Source of the DNA: a virus
DNA: 44,270 nt
Reading direction: 5' to 3' (one strand)
IMG/VR virus record: IMGVR_UViG_3300032087_004072
Location: 1 to 44,270 of that record
Part shown: one piece after another, positions 14,823 to 42,875 of the stretch
How positions within the stretch are numbered: the stretch's first letter is position 1
Layout of the letters: every line of letters begins with the position of its first letter
Made by a program: the position numbers and the translations under genes
Notes under the pieces: generated by a model
The model's database searches: none
Told to the model about the DNA's origin: nothing
Seen by the model: the letters and a program-made list of their open reading frames with translations, nothing else

Positions 14823-17690
14823 TTAGTCGTCGAATGAAGCGCCAGTTCTTGTGATTACAAAATCAAGAGCGATAAATTCGATAGAGCGGGCAGGCTTCAA
14901 GAAAATCTTAGCGTATAGAATGTTTCTATCAACTAGATCCGGGGTGGTTGTGGAGCTATCCAAAACAACTCGGAAATCTGTCAAGCCGAAGCGAGCCTTA
15001 ACGTCTGTCAAGAATGGGTTGGCAGCAGCCGTGAAGCGGTCCCAGGTTGTTTGAACATTGGGATCGAATAGAATTGTGTTAGCAATTCTTGAAACTTCCT
15101 TCTTGACAAAGATCATTAGACGGCGAACGTTAATTCTGTCTAGTGCGGAAGGTGTGACTTGTAGCGTCTTTTGACCGAAGACCACGATACCCTCGTTGGG
15201 GAAGGTGGCGATTGGGTTAATGTTGGCAGCATACAAGTTGTCACGGTCCTTAGAGGTTAGACGCATCTTCACGCCAGTGACAGGAATTCCGGCAGCACCG
15301 TTTGAGAGACCTCCGCGAACAAAGCCAGCGGGGGCGAACCAAAGCTCGGTGCGAGCCTGGGAAGTTCCGAATGTGCCTAGGGCGACGATTGAAGGTGGCG
15401 CATCGACCAGACGTCCGGTGCCTGTATCGCGGATTTGAACGAATGGGAAGAAGCAGCAGCCGTAGCTGGAATTGATACTTCTTGTTCTTAGTCCGCTGAT
15501 AGCTGTTGATACGTTAGGCGCACGGGTTGTGGCTTCAAGGTATTGCTTACCTTCTTCTCTTGGCGTATAAGATCCTTCGATATCGATGATTGCTAGGGCA
15601 TCGCCACGCTCGCCACAAGTGGTGAGGAGGTGGTCTGTTAGAACAGAGTTGGTGATGCCTGGAACCGTCATTAGGTTGGTATCGACATACTCTGGATCCT
15701 TGACTGTATCGATTGCTCTCTTAACTGTGTTGAAGGCGTAGTTGTTAAGCTCTGTCTTGCCAGACAAGAGAGTGTTTCTAAATGGCTCCTTCTCCGTGAC
15801 GTCAAGACCGTCGAAGCCACCGTGCATCGGAGCAGTGAAGCGGTCGTAGCCGAGGTCGAGAAGGGCTCTTGTGCCGCTGAGAGCGGTATAAGAGGTACCA
15901 TCAACGCGGGATCCGGAGCGGGCGAAGACGCCGGCAGATCCGGAGCCAAGAACCAAGTCGTCCATTGAGAAGGCGAAAGAAGCCTCTGTTTGAGTGTTAC
16001 TAGCAAAGGTGCTGTAATCAACGGACAGTGGTCTTGTGAGGTCGTAGTAGCTGGCGTCAAAGACGAGGCTGCTAGCATTCTTAGTGGTTTGAATACCGAA
16101 GAATGCGTCAGTTGGGTCTGTAAGGTCGCCATCACTAGCGCTTAGTCTTGTTCTAATGGCTGGATACACAAAGCTAGCAGAGATGTTGTTGTCTCCTGCA
16201 TCAACTTGTGGGTATAGCAAGGAAGAGCTGGCAGCTGTGAATGGGATGTTGGCATTACCCTTAACAATGGTTTGTGCCTCGCCAGCGGCTGTTCCAATTG
16301 GGAAAGCCACGTTGGAGCCAGAAGCAGCAGAGAAGCCCTTAAAGCGTTGAGGACCTAGATAGCCGAATGGAAGTGCGGCTGGGTCAATAGCTCCGTTGGC
16401 GACGTCATCATCAACGACGACGCGAACATAGGCAGAAAGGTTATCGTAATCTCCGTAGTGACGGATTCTTCTCTCTGTATCGTCCCATTGGACAAACTTA
16501 TCACCGATTCTGCGAGCAATGTAGTTCTCAGAATTTGGGTTAAGGTTTAGATTGTCGAAGCGTTCGAGATATACGGGCTTGTTGTCGATATCCGTGACGC
16601 TACGAAGTGTAACGGAGAAGGAACCGAAGGGATCGATCTCTGGATAGTCGGGGGCACGTAGGTTCTCGATAGAGACCTTGATGTTCTTGTTAGCCCACTC
16701 GCCATAATCAAGCGCTACGAGCTTGAAGAGAGGTTGGTTGTTAGAGAGGTTAAAGTTTGGACTATCTCCTAGGTCCTGTGAGCGGAAAAGGGGAGTCTCG
16801 GCACTTTGGAAGCCTCTCTTATGGTCATCGAATTCACCAGCGCTTCCGCTAGCAAGACCGAGGACAACACCGAATGTATCGCCGGCAGCGGTGCTGCTGA
16901 CTTGGGCAGAGACAAATTGGTCGTATGTCTCTCCTAGCCAGTAGGGGTAATAGCCGTTTGATGTGCTTTCAACAAGGTTTGTATTAACCTGGGATGGGTT
17001 TGTGTTGAAGACTTTACGGATGTACTTGTCGCTGTTTGGATCGAAGTTGAAGCAAACTCTCTCAAAGACTGTCTCATCTTGTAGAATCTCAGCGATAAAC
17101 TCATTGCTAGCGCCACGGCTTTCAATCAAGGCGCCGGCAGAACTTGTGGTCACGCCGTCGGGCGCATTACCAACAAGACGGATGTTAGTGCCTGCGGAGA
17201 GATACCAGACAGCAGCGACAGATCCGGTCTGATCGTTGTTAGCGCTACTGGAATTGATGAGGAATAGACCGTAACCACTACCGTTAGTGGAGGGGTCGTT
17301 GGTTACAGAAGGAGAACCGAAAGATCTCCAACCGGCGTCACCGCCAGTATCGAAGTTCTGGTGTTGCGCACCAACAAGACGCACAACAGTGGCTGGGGCT
17401 TGGGCAGAAGCTAGCCAAGCTTGGGCAGCATAAGCGCCATAGGTAGGTCCATCAAAGCGACCTGAACGCCAGTTGTCTCCGCCGCCTGCACCTGGGTCTG
17501 GACGACCAAAGATTCTCACAAACTCTTCAAATGAAGAAACCCTTACTGGGCGCAGACCTGGACCTTGTGCCATACGACCAATAATGGTTGGTCCTGTTGC
17601 ATCAGGCTGCACTGGGATTTGTGAACGATCAATTTCATTTACGAATACGCCAGGGGAAATGAATTTGAACTTGTTAGCTCCGCTTGCCAT
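14823..17690 (-). CDS. 18: Contractile tail sheath protein gp18, enlarged
   Basis: 955 residues against 659 for T4 gp18. The N-terminus FISPGVFVNEIDRSQIPVQP, then GPTIIGRMAQGPG and the VRIFG motif, is the standard start of the sheath fold. The C-terminus includes LMIFVKKEVSRIANTILFDP, then FTAAANPFLTDVKARFGL, then IFLKPARSIEFIALDFVITR, the conserved end that links subunits. The middle (roughly 120-700) is Ser-, Gly- and Ala-rich beta sequence and holds most of the extra 300 residues, probably surface domains. Upstream are an ACTATTTA motif (17754-17761) and AAGGAGAAG as ribosome binding site. Confidence 0.95.
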   Translation of the reverse strand: MASGANKFKFISPGVFVNEIDRSQIPVQPDATGPTIIGRMAQGPGLRPVRVSSFEEFVRIFGRPDPGAGGGDNWRSGRFDGPTYGAYAAQAWLASAQAPATVVRLVGAQHQNFDTGGDAGWRSFGSPSVTNDPSTNGSGYGLFLINSSSANNDQTGSVAAVWYLSAGTNIRLVGNAPDGVTTSSAGALIESRGASNEFIAEILQDETVFERVCFNFDPNSDKYIRKVFNTNPSQVNTNLVESTSNGYYPYWLGETYDQFVSAQVSSTAAGDTFGVVLGLASGSAGEFDDHKRGFQSAETPLFRSQDLGDSPNFNLSNNQPLFKLVALDYGEWANKNIKVSIENLRAPDYPEIDPFGSFSVTLRSVTDIDNKPVYLERFDNLNLNPNSENYIARRIGDKFVQWDDTERRIRHYGDYDNLSAYVRVVVDDDVANGAIDPAALPFGYLGPQRFKGFSAASGSNVAFPIGTAAGEAQTIVKGNANIPFTAASSSLLYPQVDAGDNNISASFVYPAIRTRLSASDGDLTDPTDAFFGIQTTKNASSLVFDASYYDLTRPLSVDYSTFASNTQTEASFAFSMDDLVLGSGSAGVFARSGSRVDGTSYTALSGTRALLDLGYDRFTAPMHGGFDGLDVTEKEPFRNTLLSGKTELNNYAFNTVKRAIDTVKDPEYVDTNLMTVPGITNSVLTDHLLTTCGERGDALAIIDIEGSYTPREEGKQYLEATTRAPNVSTAISGLRTRSINSSYGCCFFPFVQIRDTGTGRLVDAPPSIVALGTFGTSQARTELWFAPAGFVRGGLSNGAAGIPVTGVKMRLTSKDRDNLYAANINPIATFPNEGIVVFGQKTLQVTPSALDRINVRRLMIFVKKEVSRIANTILFDPNVQTTWDRFTAAANPFLTDVKARFGLTDFRVVLDSSTTTPDLVDRNILYAKIFLKPARSIEFIALDFVITRTGASFDD

Positions 17691-36777: not shown

Positions 36778-37153
36778 TATTTGGTCTCCATCCAGATAGC
36801 CATCTCTCTTCTCGGTCCTCTACCCACTGCACGTAGCACTTCCAGCAACATTCGTACTTATTCATATAAATGTCGTCTTTTGCATTAAATGAATAAGTGC
36901 CACACACGGGACAGGTGCGATTAGACTCTTTATTAAGTAGTTTCTTGGGCATTAAAATGCCATTAACCTTGACTTTCTCGTCTTTATCGCCAAGCGAATA
37001 CTCTTTTTCTGAGAGCTTCTGTATTTGTTCTAGATATTCGCGCTCTTTTTCATCATCCCAATTGGCTTTGGGGTTTTGAATCGCCTCTTTGCCATACTTT
37101 TTGCTGATGGCTCTTTCGAACGTTGCTAACTTATCCCAATCTTTTTTCTTCAC
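36761..37153 (-). CDS. Zinc-ribbon protein upstream of terminase
   Basis: 130 residues, starting with GTG at 37153 that overlaps the previous stop (GTGA) and has AGGGG 5 bases upstream. The N-terminal half is charged and helical. CPVCG near 81 and CCWKC near 101 give a four-cysteine zinc ribbon, with YSFNAKDDIYMNKYE between them. It could bind DNA or RNA or contact the terminase. I recognise no named family. Confidence 0.55.
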   Translation of the reverse strand: MKKKDWDKLATFERAISKKYGKEAIQNPKANWDDEKEREYLEQIQKLSEKEYSLGDKDEKVKVNGILMPKKLLNKESNRTCPVCGTYSFNAKDDIYMNKYECCWKCYVQWVEDREERWLSGWRPNNGNDT

Positions 37154-37617
37154 TGTGACCCCTGATTAATCTCTCTCGCTGCAAAGAAGATAGCAATTGA
37201 AGTAACAGCACCCGCAAGAAAGCCACCGGCGAAAAACCAGTGATTATGGCGATTGGGATGCTTGCGGACCATTTCTCTAAGATCAGCGATCTCTTGATCC
37301 CTTAATTGCGTTAGCGCAGTGGTACGTTCTTCGAGCGAATCATAGCGCACTTGTAGTAGATTATACTCTAACTCGTGTCGTGCCGTTAAGAGGTTAATCT
37401 CATAATTTACACGTAGATCGCAATCTGTAAGGCGAAATTCACGTTCTGCGATAAGCTGCGCAGTCGCGGTAGGATTAAAAAGCGTACCAGCAAATGGTGC
37501 TGGTTCCCCTTCTTGTAGTTGAGTAAATTGTGGCTCTTCTTCTGTGTCTTGCGCAAATAGGTGCGCTGGGAATGTTAAACTGAAAGTTATGATCAATACT
37601 AAGATTCTACTCAACAT
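37150..37617 (-). CDS. Secreted coiled-coil membrane protein, spanin-like candidate
   Basis: 155 residues. A signal peptide-like start (MLSRILVLIITFSLTFPAHL, cleavage likely near FAQ-D) is followed by GEPAPFAGTLFNPTATAQLI, a coiled-coil region (about 60-118, with charged heptads) and a C-terminal membrane segment (FFAGGFLAGAVTSIAIFFAA, 128-147). The layout of exported coiled coil with a membrane anchor is like phage spanins and Rz-type proteins. No lipobox Cys is visible. It overlaps the upstream membrane gene by 11 bases. Confidence 0.55.
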   Translation of the reverse strand: MLSRILVLIITFSLTFPAHLFAQDTEEEPQFTQLQEGEPAPFAGTLFNPTATAQLIAEREFRLTDCDLRVNYEINLLTARHELEYNLLQVRYDSLEERTTALTQLRDQEIADLREMVRKHPNRHNHWFFAGGFLAGAVTSIAIFFAAREINQGSQ

Positions 37618-38026
37618 TCTTGAACCCGAATTCCTTTTCTAGGGCTTCTGAGAGGGATCTAGGATCTTGATGAAAGTTCTCCACAAGCTCCTTAACCCTT
37701 TGACGCTTTTTTCTATCAAGTGAATCACTAGACTCATTATGTTGTCGCTCAATCTGTCGTATCGTTTCATCAAATTTAGTCCTGACTAATTCTGACCTTC
37801 TTATTTCATTCTCACGATTTTCTTCAAGAATTCTAATTCTATCTTCGTAGTTCTTGCGGCTCTTGTCCATTAGGTCCAAAATAGGATTAACGGCATCACC
37901 CTTTGTAAGAATGGTAAGTAAGGCAGCGATAATGAAAAGCACAGGCACGTACCAATGAGTCTTGATCCACGCCCAAGCTTTTAATAAAAATGTTTTGGTT
38001 GCAAGCCAAGTCATCTTAGCCTGCAT
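37607..38026 (-). CDS. Membrane-anchored coiled-coil protein, i-spanin-like candidate
   Basis: 139 residues: a short basic cytoplasmic start, one membrane segment near 24-42 (HWYVPVLFIIAALLTILTKG) and then about 80 residues of charged coiled coil (DRIRILEENRENEIRRSELV and on). This is the topology of Rz-like inner-membrane spanins. It is the second of three overlapping small membrane genes. No sequence family was recognised. Confidence 0.55.
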   Translation of the reverse strand: MQAKMTWLATKTFLLKAWAWIKTHWYVPVLFIIAALLTILTKGDAVNPILDLMDKSRKNYEDRIRILEENRENEIRRSELVRTKFDETIRQIERQHNESSDSLDRKKRQRVKELVENFHQDPRSLSEALEKEFGFKNVE

Positions 38027-38237
38027 TCTTTAAGGCAACAACTGTATCAACAACTCCTTGGGAGCCGATATACACTACTGAGATTGTCACCCAATCACCA
38101 GATGTCACAAATCCTAGAAATGCTAGGACCGTTCCTGTTCCCCACACTAATAGCTTTCTTGAAGTTAGCTTTCCAAGAATTCTATCCACGAGGGGAGCTT
38201 TTTGTATTTGTGCTTCTGTCATTTTTTCCTCCGTCAC
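38016..38237 (-). CDS. Small two-TM membrane protein, holin-like candidate
   Basis: 73 residues with two hydrophobic segments (LLVWGTGTVLAFLGFVTSG, 29-47; WVTISVVYIGSQGVVDTVVA, 49-68) and a charged N-terminus. The size and topology fit class II holins. It is the first of three consecutive membrane proteins and has a strong ribosome binding site (GGAGG). No endolysin gene is visible in the window, so the lysis role is inferred only from topology and grouping. Confidence 0.5.
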   Translation of the reverse strand: MTEEKMTEAQIQKAPLVDRILGKLTSRKLLVWGTGTVLAFLGFVTSGDWVTISVVYIGSQGVVDTVVALKNAG

Positions 38238-38252
38238 TGACTTAATAATTAG

Positions 38253-41200
38253 TTAGTGATTTATGAAAGCGTATCCATCTCTTTTCTCGATCACTATCTG
38301 CGAATCTACGCAGTCCTTTAATGAGTCAAGGTGTGAGATCAATAAGATAGTCTTAAATTGAGCCTTGATCAAATCTAGAATTCGCACAAATCCTTCCATA
38401 TTCTCCTCGTCCAAAGCAGTCCCAGGCTCATCCAGGATGAAGATGTCACCCTTTGGCAGACTGGAAACAGAGAGAAGCGCTAGGCGAATTGCCATCGAGG
38501 CGATAGTCTTCTCGGCTCCGGAGCCCATTTCAAGTGGTCGTGGTTCAAAGCGAGGATGCTTAATGAAGATGTTAAGACGCTTGTCTGCGCTTTCAAGATA
38601 AACCTCAAAATTTACAATATTTGTAAGGACCTTGGAGATTTCATCATTGATCGCAGGGAGCTTTTTCTTAATGATATCATATGCAATGCCATTGCTGTGC
38701 ATACAGCGCATATAAAGATCGTAAGCAGAGTATTGATTTCTTAGGTCCTCCAACTCTTGCTTCTGGTCTCGCAGGCTTTCAACCTGCTGTTCCAGTGAGC
38801 CGTGCTTTACATATAGTTCTTTAAGTTCATTATCGCAATTTTCCAGCGTGCTATTGAAAGAAAAAATATTCTTTTTGTGGTCTCGCTTCTGCCTGTTGAG
38901 TTCTGAAAGCTGTTCAATGGCTTCCTTGTTCTCGTTATACGTATCAATTTCTTTCAGAAGTCGCTGAATATTATGCTCTGCTGTTAGCTTGGTAGTCTTA
39001 TTTCGCTCAATGCCGAGTTCGCACTTTGTTAGTGTGCGTTCAACTTCCCGCTTCTTATCAACAAGTTGCTCATATTGACTGTGCTTCTTATTGATTTCTG
39101 ACTCATTAAGGGCTGAAATATCAGCCTCAATCTTGCTACTCTCGTTATGTAGCGTAGCAAGCTTGGCAGCGTTCTCAGCAAACCTTTCCTTGGCTGTGTG
39201 GGCATCCTTAACAAACTTGTTTTCGTTACAATACTGACAGTCGGGATCATATTCGTGCGTCTCCAGCATCTTCATCTTCTTCTGGTTGTTTGCCTGCTCG
39301 CGATCAAGAAGCTTGATGATATTGTTTAGTTGGGACATTTCCTCCTGCTTGGTTGCAAGAAGTTCCTTCTTGATAAGAATATCATCGATATCAATATCTG
39401 ATAGGAAAGCGGCGATGTTCGTTAGCAGCTTTTCTTTCTCGTGGTGCTCTTGTTGAAGGGTCCGAAGATTCTCATCTGCCTTGTAAAGGTCTAGCTCGCT
39501 TGCGCTTAGTTCTTCCTGTACAGCATCATAGTCGATCATCTGCGTTGGAATAGAAGAAATCTGACTTTCTACTTCACTCAGAAGAGCCTCTACTGCTTTA
39601 AGTTCTTCTCTTGTGACCTCGCAAGTTGCCTTGTGATCATCGATTACTTCGCCGTTCTCTCGCAGCTCCTTAGAGGCAGCCGTGATGAGATTCACAAAAT
39701 CTTTGCCTTCCAGTAGTTTGAGGGCACCCTTGATACTAGAACTATCGTCCTTAGCCATCTTGAACTTCTTCTCGAAGATTTCTAGGTCAAGGAACTTGGC
39801 TAGGATTTCTTTGCGCTTGGTTGAGCCCTCACCAATGAACGACAGAGAGCCAAGCTGAGAAGCCATTGACGTTAGGAGGAAGTCCTCCATCGTGCCAAAG
39901 ACCTTTCGAATCTTCTTGTCAGTGTCGTTTCTGGTAAGTCCGTTTAGCTCCTCCTTCTCTCCGAGAAGGTTGGTCTTGAAGAAATCCACATCGGTCTTTG
40001 CTTCGGTCGTCTCCTGCCCTTTAAGGCGCTTGATATACTTTTCCGATGTACGGTGTATCTCGTAGGTCTCGTTGCCGATAGATGCCTTTACGACGCTTCT
40101 ACACCCCTCTTTGTTTTGGTTAATAATGTTAAGGTTCTTGCGCTCGTTCTTGGACGTGCTGTTGAACATAGTGTAGAGCAGTCCATCGATTGTGGAAGAC
40201 TTGCCTGAATAGTTCTTGCCGAAGATACCGACGATGCCGTTGGTCTTGCTGAAATCAATCTTATTGTCCTCGCCATAGTTGAACAGGTTATCCCATTCAA
40301 GGCTTTCTAGCTTCCAATCTACGTTGCGAGACACATCTTCGTTTTCCTGTGCTAGCGTGCTATACTTACGGTTTAGCTCAAAGACGCGGTCAAGCTCTTC
40401 TTCGCTAACCTCAAAATCTTTGAGATATTCCGTGATAAGCTTCTCTTGAACACTAGGGTCTCGGAGATTTTCCTTTTTGAGACCATCAGCCAAATTCTCC
40501 ACAGAGCCACGCTGACCAGCTGCACGATTAAGAAACGACACACTCTCAGGCTTGAAGCGATGCTTTACAATCTCAATTGCACGTCGTAGGCGGTCTGCTG
40601 GTAGGCTGTTGTTTGCTACAAGCCTTAGTCGGGCACCCTCCTGCACTTGGACGTTCTTTGGCAGGCGCCCCTTGGGTGTAAGCTCAATCGTGATAAACGG
40701 CTTGGGGTTGAGAAGCTTGTGGTGGGTGACAGTAAAGTCGTCTTTACTATTTATTTCCCAAATCAAGAATCCTTTATCATTGGTCTCGCCGTGGTTTTGC
40801 TGGACAATAGAGCCACAGTAGCGGACACGACCGTCCTCGTCAAGAATCTGGTTGGTTTTGTGAATGTCCCCAAGCATTGCGAAGTCGTGACCGGCAAAGA
40901 TTGAGACATCGTGGTCGCCATATTCCATAACCCAGCCGGCATCAGTGCTGACACCAGCCACACAACCGTGGTAGAACGCGATATTGATGCGGTCTTCGCT
41001 GCTGGGCTTGACCCAGTTGTCCTCATCGAATACTGAAAGGACGTTGAATGCCAAATCATCGGCAACAATAGTCTCACCAGCGTCCGCTAGAAGATGAATA
41101 TTGGGATTATCCAGCGCATTTACGATGGGTGTGATGGCATTTTGGCGACTTTTGTTGCGCAAATTGCCGTCGTGATTGCCCAAAATGATGTAAAGTGGGG

Positions 41201-41417
41201 CGATTTCTGCCAAATTTGTGAAGAATTCAGAGCATAATTGCACGAATTCGGGGCTAATTTGGGTCTTTGTGTGGGCAATATCGCCGCCAATATAGATATA
41301 ATCTACCTCGTTTTTACGCAAAATAGCGTATAACTGGTTGAAAACGTGTCTGTATTCATAGTGATACTTCAGATTTTTGATATGGACGTCCGCCAGGTGT
41401 GCAATCTTATAAGTCAT
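38253..41417 (-). CDS. 47/46: Fused Mre11/SbcD-Rad50/SbcC nuclease-ATPase (gp47-gp46 fusion)
   Basis: 1054 residues in one frame. Residues 1-340 are an Mre11/SbcD phosphoesterase: HLADVH (7-12), GGD (44-46), GNHD (80-83), YHG with His150, and GHD (176-178) with GDIH (183-186). Residues 370-1054 are Rad50/SbcC: Walker A GKNYSGKSS (400-408), a long coiled coil with a zinc hook CQYC (Cys727 and Cys730), signature MGSGAEKT (about 960-970) and Walker B IFILDEP (about 990-1000) with LISHLDSL after it. T4 encodes these as separate gp47 (339) and gp46 (560). The complex resects DNA ends to supply ssDNA for UvsX. It lies 15 bases after the primase gene region and before the lysis-like trio. Confidence 0.95.
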   Translation of the reverse strand: MTYKIAHLADVHIKNLKYHYEYRHVFNQLYAILRKNEVDYIYIGGDIAHTKTQISPEFVQLCSEFFTNLAEIAPLYIILGNHDGNLRNKSRQNAITPIVNALDNPNIHLLADAGETIVADDLAFNVLSVFDEDNWVKPSSEDRINIAFYHGCVAGVSTDAGWVMEYGDHDVSIFAGHDFAMLGDIHKTNQILDEDGRVRYCGSIVQQNHGETNDKGFLIWEINSKDDFTVTHHKLLNPKPFITIELTPKGRLPKNVQVQEGARLRLVANNSLPADRLRRAIEIVKHRFKPESVSFLNRAAGQRGSVENLADGLKKENLRDPSVQEKLITEYLKDFEVSEEELDRVFELNRKYSTLAQENEDVSRNVDWKLESLEWDNLFNYGEDNKIDFSKTNGIVGIFGKNYSGKSSTIDGLLYTMFNSTSKNERKNLNIINQNKEGCRSVVKASIGNETYEIHRTSEKYIKRLKGQETTEAKTDVDFFKTNLLGEKEELNGLTRNDTDKKIRKVFGTMEDFLLTSMASQLGSLSFIGEGSTKRKEILAKFLDLEIFEKKFKMAKDDSSSIKGALKLLEGKDFVNLITAASKELRENGEVIDDHKATCEVTREELKAVEALLSEVESQISSIPTQMIDYDAVQEELSASELDLYKADENLRTLQQEHHEKEKLLTNIAAFLSDIDIDDILIKKELLATKQEEMSQLNNIIKLLDREQANNQKKMKMLETHEYDPDCQYCNENKFVKDAHTAKERFAENAAKLATLHNESSKIEADISALNESEINKKHSQYEQLVDKKREVERTLTKCELGIERNKTTKLTAEHNIQRLLKEIDTYNENKEAIEQLSELNRQKRDHKKNIFSFNSTLENCDNELKELYVKHGSLEQQVESLRDQKQELEDLRNQYSAYDLYMRCMHSNGIAYDIIKKKLPAINDEISKVLTNIVNFEVYLESADKRLNIFIKHPRFEPRPLEMGSGAEKTIASMAIRLALLSVSSLPKGDIFILDEPGTALDEENMEGFVRILDLIKAQFKTILLISHLDSLKDCVDSQIVIEKRDGYAFINH

Positions 41418-41427
41418 TCATTCTCCG

Positions 41428-42363
41428 TTAAAATGCGGTAAGGGCGCGGTAGTAAAGGTAGTTGTCCGAGGACATAAACATCGCAGCCTCTTTGCGCTTT
41501 TGGTATTCCTCAGTTGTCATTGATCCTACATCATCATACCCAGTGATGTCAATCTTATAAAGCTCCACGTCATACTTCATAAGGGCAGCGATGAGCCGAT
41601 TGGACTTCTTTTCTGCGTCGGGGTCAAGAGCGAGGTAAATAGGAGTGTCGTGCTTGACAATCTCCTGAAATAGTTTAGAACTTTCGTTCAGTGTGGAACC
41701 CAGGATAGGGACGGCGTTTGGTCCTGCGACGATTGCGTCAAAGGCGCCCTCCACTATCGTTAGATCGCTGTCCCAATCAAGAAACAGCTCATTAAAAACA
41801 ATGTCTCGACTGACTGGTGGATTCTTATATCGCATCCAATCATCGTTATACGCACGAGCAATGAAATAATTCACCTCTCCATTCATATTGAAAGACGGAA
41901 TGATCACGCGATTGGCGTATTCACCACTCACACAAAAGCCAATCTTCCATTTTACAAAGTCTGTCTTCGACAAACCTCTCTTTTGTAAGTATCTTCTCGC
42001 CGGAAGTGACGACAAAGATACGTTATTATTTGCCAAAGACACAAACTCTTCGGGCAGATTAATGACAGGTTCCGGCTCTGAATCGTCAATGTCCCCAAAA
42101 AGGTTCTCAAACGCATCCAGAGAGACGCGACCCGTCAGCGCATCCCACTCTTGCAAATCAGCCCAAGAGCCCACACGTCGCACTACACGGCGAATATGAG
42201 GGGTTTTCCAATCACACACCCAACACTTGGCGCCGCGGTGGAGATTAACTGAAAACTTTGGCTTGTGATGTTTGCAAAAAGGACAGTGGAAGAGATACTC
42301 TGTTCCGGTCCTCCGAGGAGTACCGAGAATAGATTTTAGGATTTGGAGTTTCTCTGCTTCCAT
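41428..42363 (-). CDS. 61: DNA primase, DnaG/gp61-like with TOPRIM domain
   Basis: 311 residues (T4 gp61 is 342). The N-terminal zinc finger uses four Cys: CPFC (27-30) and CWVC (47-50), with FSVNLHRGAK between, as in DnaG-type primases. The RNA polymerase core carries the TOPRIM signs IVEGAFDAI with Glu205 (203-211) and ALDPDAEKK with Asp247 and Asp249 (245-253). It makes RNA primers on the lagging strand and needs a helicase partner (gp41 type), which is not in this window. The gene overlaps the RuvC gene by 28 bases, so its coding start is inside the upstream gene. Confidence 0.88.
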   Translation of the reverse strand: MEAEKLQILKSILGTPRRTGTEYLFHCPFCKHHKPKFSVNLHRGAKCWVCDWKTPHIRRVVRRVGSWADLQEWDALTGRVSLDAFENLFGDIDDSEPEPVINLPEEFVSLANNNVSLSSLPARRYLQKRGLSKTDFVKWKIGFCVSGEYANRVIIPSFNMNGEVNYFIARAYNDDWMRYKNPPVSRDIVFNELFLDWDSDLTIVEGAFDAIVAGPNAVPILGSTLNESSKLFQEIVKHDTPIYLALDPDAEKKSNRLIAALMKYDVELYKIDITGYDDVGSMTTEEYQKRKEAAMFMSSDNYLYYRALTAF

Positions 42364-42875
42364 TCAATATATCCAGCTTTCGCTATTACAATACTATCAG
42401 CCCGATCGTAAGAGTCGGGCTTGGGATTACCTTGTCTTGTATATTCTACTTCAAAAGTAGGCTCGTTGTCAAGCAAATATTCTAAAACTACTTGCTTTGC
42501 TTTTGAACCCTTGGGTATAGTAATTCCACAAGATTTACGAGCAGAAGTAGCAGCCAGGTAGTCTGGCTCGCGATGGAACACCTGATAACATATCCACGAT
42601 ACTATGCCGTTATATCGGGACAATGTTGAGAGAGTCTTTGCTGATGAGAAGCCCGATCTGAAAGATTGAAGAGATTGCTCAATATAAATCTCTTCTATCT
42701 TATATTTTTTACCAATATCAATTAGACGCTCCTCAATCCACGTCGCTTTTGAGATGAGTGTTGGGAAGTGCTTCTTATTTCTTGTATCCCAAGCAGTATT
42801 ATAGACGACTTTTCCGTCTTTGTCAATAACCGTCGCACCAGTGATGCTGGTGCTGACGTCTAATCCTAAAATCAT
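42336..42875 (-). CDS. ruvC: RuvC-like Holliday junction resolvase
   Basis: 179 residues (E. coli RuvC is 173). RNase H-fold acidic residues are Asp6 in ILGLDVSTSITG, Glu66 in EEIYIEQ, and Asp157 and Asp160 in SYDRADSIVIAKAG, the RuvC quartet. It resolves branched DNA before packaging. T4 uses endonuclease VII (gp49) for this, so a RuvC type is a replacement. The start overlaps the stop of the upstream structural gene (TAATG), linking it to late expression. Confidence 0.88.
   Translation of the reverse strand: MILGLDVSTSITGATVIDKDGKVVYNTAWDTRNKKHFPTLISKATWIEERLIDIGKKYKIEEIYIEQSLQSFRSGFSSAKTLSTLSRYNGIVSWICYQVFHREPDYLAATSARKSCGITIPKGSKAKQVVLEYLLDNEPTFEVEYTRQGNPKPDSYDRADSIVIAKAGYIEWKQRNSKS

Follow-up and report, generated by a model that had tools for sequence, protein, structure and literature searches.

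The canonical Mre11–Rad50 complex is formed by two proteins in a 2:2 arrangement, and publications present the hook of Rad50 as a conserved CXXC motif. Single-chain versions are also known. Yoshida, Claverie & Ogata (2011) described the Mimivirus protein R555 and twelve other Mre11/Rad50 fusions, including that of Bacillus phage 0305phi8-36, and the published fusions extend to plasmids and eukaryotes (PMC3175470). In R555, the third Asp of the motif set (GDxxD) is replaced by His, and His206 by Asp. Viral fractions were shown to be enriched in R555-like reads, and the same authors inferred a phage origin for many R555-like metagenomic genes (PMC3175470).

The fusion described here was found in a 44,270-nucleotide stretch of viral DNA from IMG/VR, hereafter called the window, which is a fragment of a phage genome. 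The phage is marine and T4-type; the window encodes homologues of the gp17 terminase, the gp20 portal (E 1e-77), the gp23 capsid protein (E 7e-73) and the tail sheath. Judged by the terminase, the closest phages are the Flavobacterium immuto phages (46%), Microcystis phage Mel-JY01 (43%) and LR756508 (42%). The window's tail sheath gene (14823–17690, 955 aa) matches sheath families only over residues from about 400 to 950, and the first ~400 residues are without a family. The features of the fusion and of the genes just upstream are as follows.

38253..41417, minus strand: fused Mre11–Rad50 (SbcD–SbcC) gene, 1054 aa (single ORF; Pfam and PHROG domains; same open frame in relatives)
40527..41417, minus strand: calcineurin-like phosphoesterase and capping domain, residues 1–297 (Pfam; structure match 7dog_B; conservation in 147 relatives)
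40341..40457, minus strand: two helices, probable Mre11 helix-loop-helix that binds the base of the Rad50 coil, residues 321–359 (DSSP of the model; layout in PMC3175470)
40317..40340, minus strand: non-helical linker of 8 residues, 360–367 (model; alignment of 147 relatives)
39753..40316, minus strand: Rad50 ATPase lobe I with Walker A (400–407), residues 368–555 (Pfam, motifs, structure match)
39282..39740, minus strand: ascending coiled coil, fast evolving, residues 560–712 (model; majority-residue frequency 0.39)
39183..39281, minus strand: hook apex HEYDPDCQYCNENKFVKDA, CX2C form, residues 713–745 (727–730 correspond to 39228–39239)
38751..39182, minus strand: descending coiled coil, residues 746–889 (model and conservation)
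38256..38750, minus strand: Rad50 ATPase lobe II, residues 890–1054, with the signature at 966, Walker B and D-loop from 994 on and switch His1029 (motifs, structure match, conservation)
41428..42363, minus strand: DnaG-like primase gene, just upstream of the fusion (phrog_47, E 1e-36)
42336..42875, minus strand: RuvC-like Holliday-junction resolvase gene (phrog_159, E 6e-7)

The frame at 38253–41417 begins with ATG and runs for 1054 codons with zero internal stops, and neither a stop nor a frameshift occurs at residues 340–372, where the two halves had been proposed to meet. Pfam places Metallophos at residues 4–178 (E 6e-10) and AAA_23 at 373–618 (E 7e-9), both above cut-off, together with a match to SMC_N (370–1031) that falls below it. 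The SbcD-like phrog_100 covers residues 1–346 (E 1e-35), and the SbcC-like phrog_77 also matches (E 9e-58). An Mre11-like phosphoesterase is followed by a Rad50-like ATPase in one unbroken frame, which confirms a single intact chain made up of an SbcD/Mre11 phosphoesterase (1–298) and, after it, an SbcC/Rad50 ABC ATPase (368–1054). This arrangement is what an earlier reading of the sequence alone had proposed, leaving the minus strand unstated, and the folds of both halves and the fused relatives described below bear it out.

A scan of viral contigs returned 597 matching stretches, the best 80 of which are full or near-full length, and a one-frame protein is present in 83 of the 86 loci that were fetched. 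The remaining three are L002, where the gene is interrupted, L004, whose record is cut off at its start, and L006, a phage in which the gene is split. When the nuclease half alone was used as the query, to avoid selecting for fusion, 75 of 80 loci ran on into the ATPase, five were cut by the contig end and none was split. Further scans yielded 147 distinct full-length fused IMG/VR relatives, all with the same layout and with lengths of 1030–1078 residues as read. The fused form is thus widespread among uncultured phages. Had all close relatives carried two separate genes, the sequence-only reading would have been refuted; they carry the fusion instead. In the 484-kb phage LR756508.1 (L002:2944–7169), a 305-aa Cys-rich ORF interrupts the phosphoesterase domain of the fused gene after GDIHKRQ; this ORF resembles a homing endonuclease and is possibly an intron or intein-like insertion.

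The fusion appears to be the only enzyme of its type in these phages. Each of 11 large IMG/VR phage records (120–204 kb) holds one fused copy and no convincing second, separate pair; two extra phrog_77 matches in these records (G007 and G008) are short and weak (E 7e-5 and 3e-4). There is also no second copy within the 44-kb window although, given that it is a fragment, this particular phage might carry one elsewhere. The 735-kb phage LR756501.1 (L003) encodes a fused 1202-aa Mre11–Rad50 and, apart from it, a 618-aa Rad50-like frame (670999–672753). Among the plasmid matches listed, query cover reaches only 62%, over the Rad50 half. The scan of cellular genomes returned a single contig (L088, PBOB01000007.1), filed under an Acidiferrobacteraceae MAG. 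Its match position and size (24,260) equal those of an IMG/VR phage contig (L045), and it is therefore probably of phage origin and misplaced in a bacterial genome bin.

An AlphaFold model was built from 55 family sequences (mean pLDDT 79.6, pTM 0.45). Given a pTM of only 0.45, we consider the individual domains usable, whereas their mutual placement, including that of the nuclease on the ATPase heads, is not predicted. Residues 1–298 of the model match SbcD/Mre11 structures (7dog_B, Z 23.9, 274 aligned, rmsd 3.4 Å over 3–298; 4m0v_A, Z 22.8), and residues 368–1054 match SbcC/Rad50 heads (7yzo_D, Z 29.1, 352 aligned, rmsd 3.8 Å). The comparison with known structures thus agrees with the proposed identity of both halves. 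Among viral structures, the model is most similar to giant-virus repair exonucleases of 969–1389 aa.

The Mre11 half carries DxH at residue 10, GD at 45, GNHD at 80 and GDIH at 183, and D10, H12, D46, N81, H82, H150, D184 and H186 are invariant across the 147 relatives. The sequence-only reading had credited this half with all Mre11 motifs. The motifs are indeed present, but the statement is too strong because GDIH replaces the usual GHxH, with Asp184 where Pyrococcus furiosus Mre11 has His206, and GDIAH replaces GDxxD; both replacements are invariant in the 147 relatives. By motif reading and the alignment of the relatives, seven of eight expected metal ligands are kept and one His has become Asp, and therefore the activity or specificity of the nuclease may differ from that of canonical Mre11. 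With residue equivalence assigned by motif order, the two replacements are those of R555. Given that such fusions have been published since 2011 and that the window protein carries both R555 substitutions, it belongs to an already known kind (PMC3175470).

The Rad50 motifs claimed earlier are all present, namely Walker A (GKNYSGKS) at 400, CQYC at 727, SGAE (the signature) at 966 and ILDE (Walker B) at 994; the D-loop and switch His 1029 are present as well. The head is formed from both ends of the coiled coil, as in Rad50/SbcC proteins, and K406, S966, G967, D996, E997 and H1029 are invariant across the 147 relatives.

The two halves are joined by a region with two predicted helices, at 321–335 and 339–359 (DSSP of the AlphaFold model). 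Judging by their position and predicted helicity only, these are probably the C-terminal helix-loop-helix through which Mre11 binds Rad50, and a helix-loop-helix layout has been described for Mre11/Rad50 fusions (PMC3175470). The helical linker that had been proposed is therefore a misreading, as the helices match the Mre11 helix-loop-helix by position and the actual linker (360–367) is non-helical. The step from residue 359 to residue 368 is always nine residues, without indels among the 147 relatives, and the linker is better conserved than the preceding helices (0.78 versus 0.61). It therefore resembles a spacer of set length more than a loose connection. Being a single chain of 1054 aa whose linker is fixed, the protein also lends itself to structural studies.

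The coil is much more diverged than the ATPase lobes, with a majority-residue frequency of 0.39–0.42 versus 0.76–0.80 (147 relatives). In the window protein, the coil apex reads CQYC (727–730), a putative zinc hook, in keeping with the CxxC claimed previously. Across the family, by contrast, this is a minority form. When hook types were scored on the apex columns of the 147 relatives, including the window (loci L007–L290), 106 were CX6C, 17 CX7C, 21 CX2C and 3 neither, so that CX6C or CX7C is found in 123 of 147. The CX7C count combines 8 proteins so classed with 9 of 12 'other' rows that read PCx7CxF, and three proteins (L158, L159 and L173) are without a recognisable Cys pair (GCKCLHE). The consensus is HEYDPxCxxCxENxFVKDA for CX2C hooks and VPCGxxFxxCKFIKDA for CX6C hooks.

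Hook types also switch between close relatives. On a tree built without the coil and hook, and with the twelve 'other' rows left out, hook type changes 14 times, 12 of these changes being forced by well-supported branches. One CX6C protein (L175) is 95–97% identical in its flanks to six CX2C proteins. In another group (that of L077), CX6C is found in three separate contigs (L268, L269 and L281) and CX2C in five (L270–L273 and L280), and therefore a single chimeric contig does not explain the switch. At fourfold-degenerate sites, the coil has diverged more than the flanks in many close pairs, with 1 of 78 pairs passing Bonferroni correction, and silent-site divergence of coil and flank is equal in two pairs with different hooks (L175/L186 and L175/L177). 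As to whether hook and coil travel together, the number of hook changes needed is the same on both kinds of tree, 8 on coil trees and 8 on the flank tree. The silent-site comparisons suggest that exchange of coil segments may lie behind hook switching in some pairs, but not in all. We tentatively propose, at somewhat below even confidence, that the interchangeable hook forms might serve as a swappable dimerisation code against mixing with the complexes of co-infecting phages or the host, or might permit escape from a hook-binding inhibitor. The fused gene itself is ordinary for a kind published since 2011; what was unexpected is the variation, among relatives, of the putative zinc-binding tip that would join two copies.

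The fusion often has the primase and RuvC-like genes as neighbours. Among 57 relatives with more than 2.5 kb of upstream sequence, the primase gene lies within 1.5 kb of the fusion in 40, the RuvC-like gene lies within 3 kb upstream in 42, and both are kept in 38. After the fusion, three small genes (73, 139 and 155 aa) at 37150–38237 have apparent membrane or signal segments by eye and no Pfam or PHROG match. Homologues of these genes follow the fusion in 58–72 of 73 loci, and they are possibly a lysis cassette. The immuto phage genome NC_055915.1 (L094) has no match to phrog_77 or phrog_100, and immuto phages carry a 260-aa 'exonuclease' after the primase, in place of Mre11–Rad50.

In our judgement, the gene very probably encodes the phage's only Mre11–Rad50 (gp47–gp46) enzyme, produced as a single chain, which would carry out ATP-gated resection for recombination-dependent replication. 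Dimerisation, ATP gating and the resection role rest on analogy with T4 gp46/47 and E. coli SbcCD. By this analogy, two chains would pair via their Mre11 halves, via ATPase heads closed by two ATP molecules and via a metal hook at the coil tip, giving an M2R2 assembly. ATP binding would close the heads and restrain the nuclease. Hydrolysis and a DNA end would then move the nuclease, which the helix-loop-helix and the short linker of fixed length keep attached, such that cutting occurs and 3' single-stranded ends are produced for recombination-dependent replication of the T4-type genome. Fusion had been thought to fix a 1:1 stoichiometry. This adds little, because two-protein complexes are already 1:1 and fusion leaves the ratio unchanged; its likely effects would be co-production and a fixed tether.

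Three other explanations were weighed against this assignment. The joining of two adjacent genes by an assembly or sequencing artefact might be suspected in an uncultured viral contig, and T4 has both genes close together with two small genes between them. However, 147 distinct proteins, encoded on many independent contigs, share the junction, its linker is conserved without gaps, and the annotated records of Mel-JY01 and Xanthomonas phage XacN1 are likewise fused. Because independent contigs share the same junction, we reject an artefact, the chance of which we consider negligible.

It is also unlikely that the protein is a specialised variant with an altered nuclease, used for instance for end-bridging, host-DNA degradation or action against competing phages instead of resection. 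The invariant GDIH in place of GHxH, with loss of His206, would fit such a role, and Yoshida et al. note that cellular fusions mostly occur alongside normal pairs and might serve another purpose (PMC3175470). In related phages, however, the gene is apparently the only copy, all other metal ligands are invariant, and it often lies beside primase and resolvase genes. Less probable still is an exchange with giant eukaryotic viruses that left the phage with an extra repair gene and not a replacement for gp46/47. At full length, the closest structure matches are R555-type proteins of giant viruses, which share both odd residues (PMC3175470), but the gene is deeply diversified within the phage group and keeps its neighbours, and the suggestion of Yoshida et al. 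that many R555-like genes belong to phages also argues against this origin. We therefore retain the assignment as the phage's own gp47–gp46 enzyme.

Among the two-protein systems, E. coli SbcCD has longer coils than the window protein and a canonical GHxH site. Both of its halves have the same fold as those of the window protein (Z 29 and 22.8), although SbcCD is two proteins. T4 gp47/gp46 shares with the window protein the same two domains, an origin in a T4-type phage, short coils, a CxxC hook (CPTC in T4) and a location near replication genes, but in T4 these are two genes with 46.1 and 46.2 between them. On the trees of both halves, T4 and the other split proteins of T4-type phages lie outside the window family, whereas on the Rad50-lobe tree that family clusters with Mel-JY01, LR756508 and LR756501. 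A single origin of all fusions is not supported: on both half trees, where branches are long, the fused XacN1 protein clusters with split T4/Cr30 proteins, a placement that requires at least two changes of fusion state. The half trees are in line with multiple origins of fusion, as already published, with a certainty limited by the long branches.

Among fused proteins, the 'AAA domain containing protein' of Mel-JY01 (PP395634.1) is 31% identical to the window protein over its whole length, with a primase gene just upstream and a CX2C hook; it is nevertheless distant, about 1066 aa long, and its annotation does not call it a fusion. The R555 group resembles the window protein in having a nuclease followed by an ATPase in a single chain, GDxxH, Asp for His206 and abundance in aquatic viral metagenomes (PMC3175470). 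R555 itself differs in being 1351 aa long with coils of cellular length, whereas the window protein has 1054 aa, shorter coils and a T4-type tailed phage as its source. The novelty implied by the sequence-only reading was overstated, given the 2011 descriptions and the annotated fusions of Mel-JY01 and XacN1 (PMC3175470). The long contigs confirm what Yoshida et al. inferred from short reads (PMC3175470): in a large group of aquatic phages of the T4 type, Mre11–Rad50 is usually encoded as an R555-type fusion.
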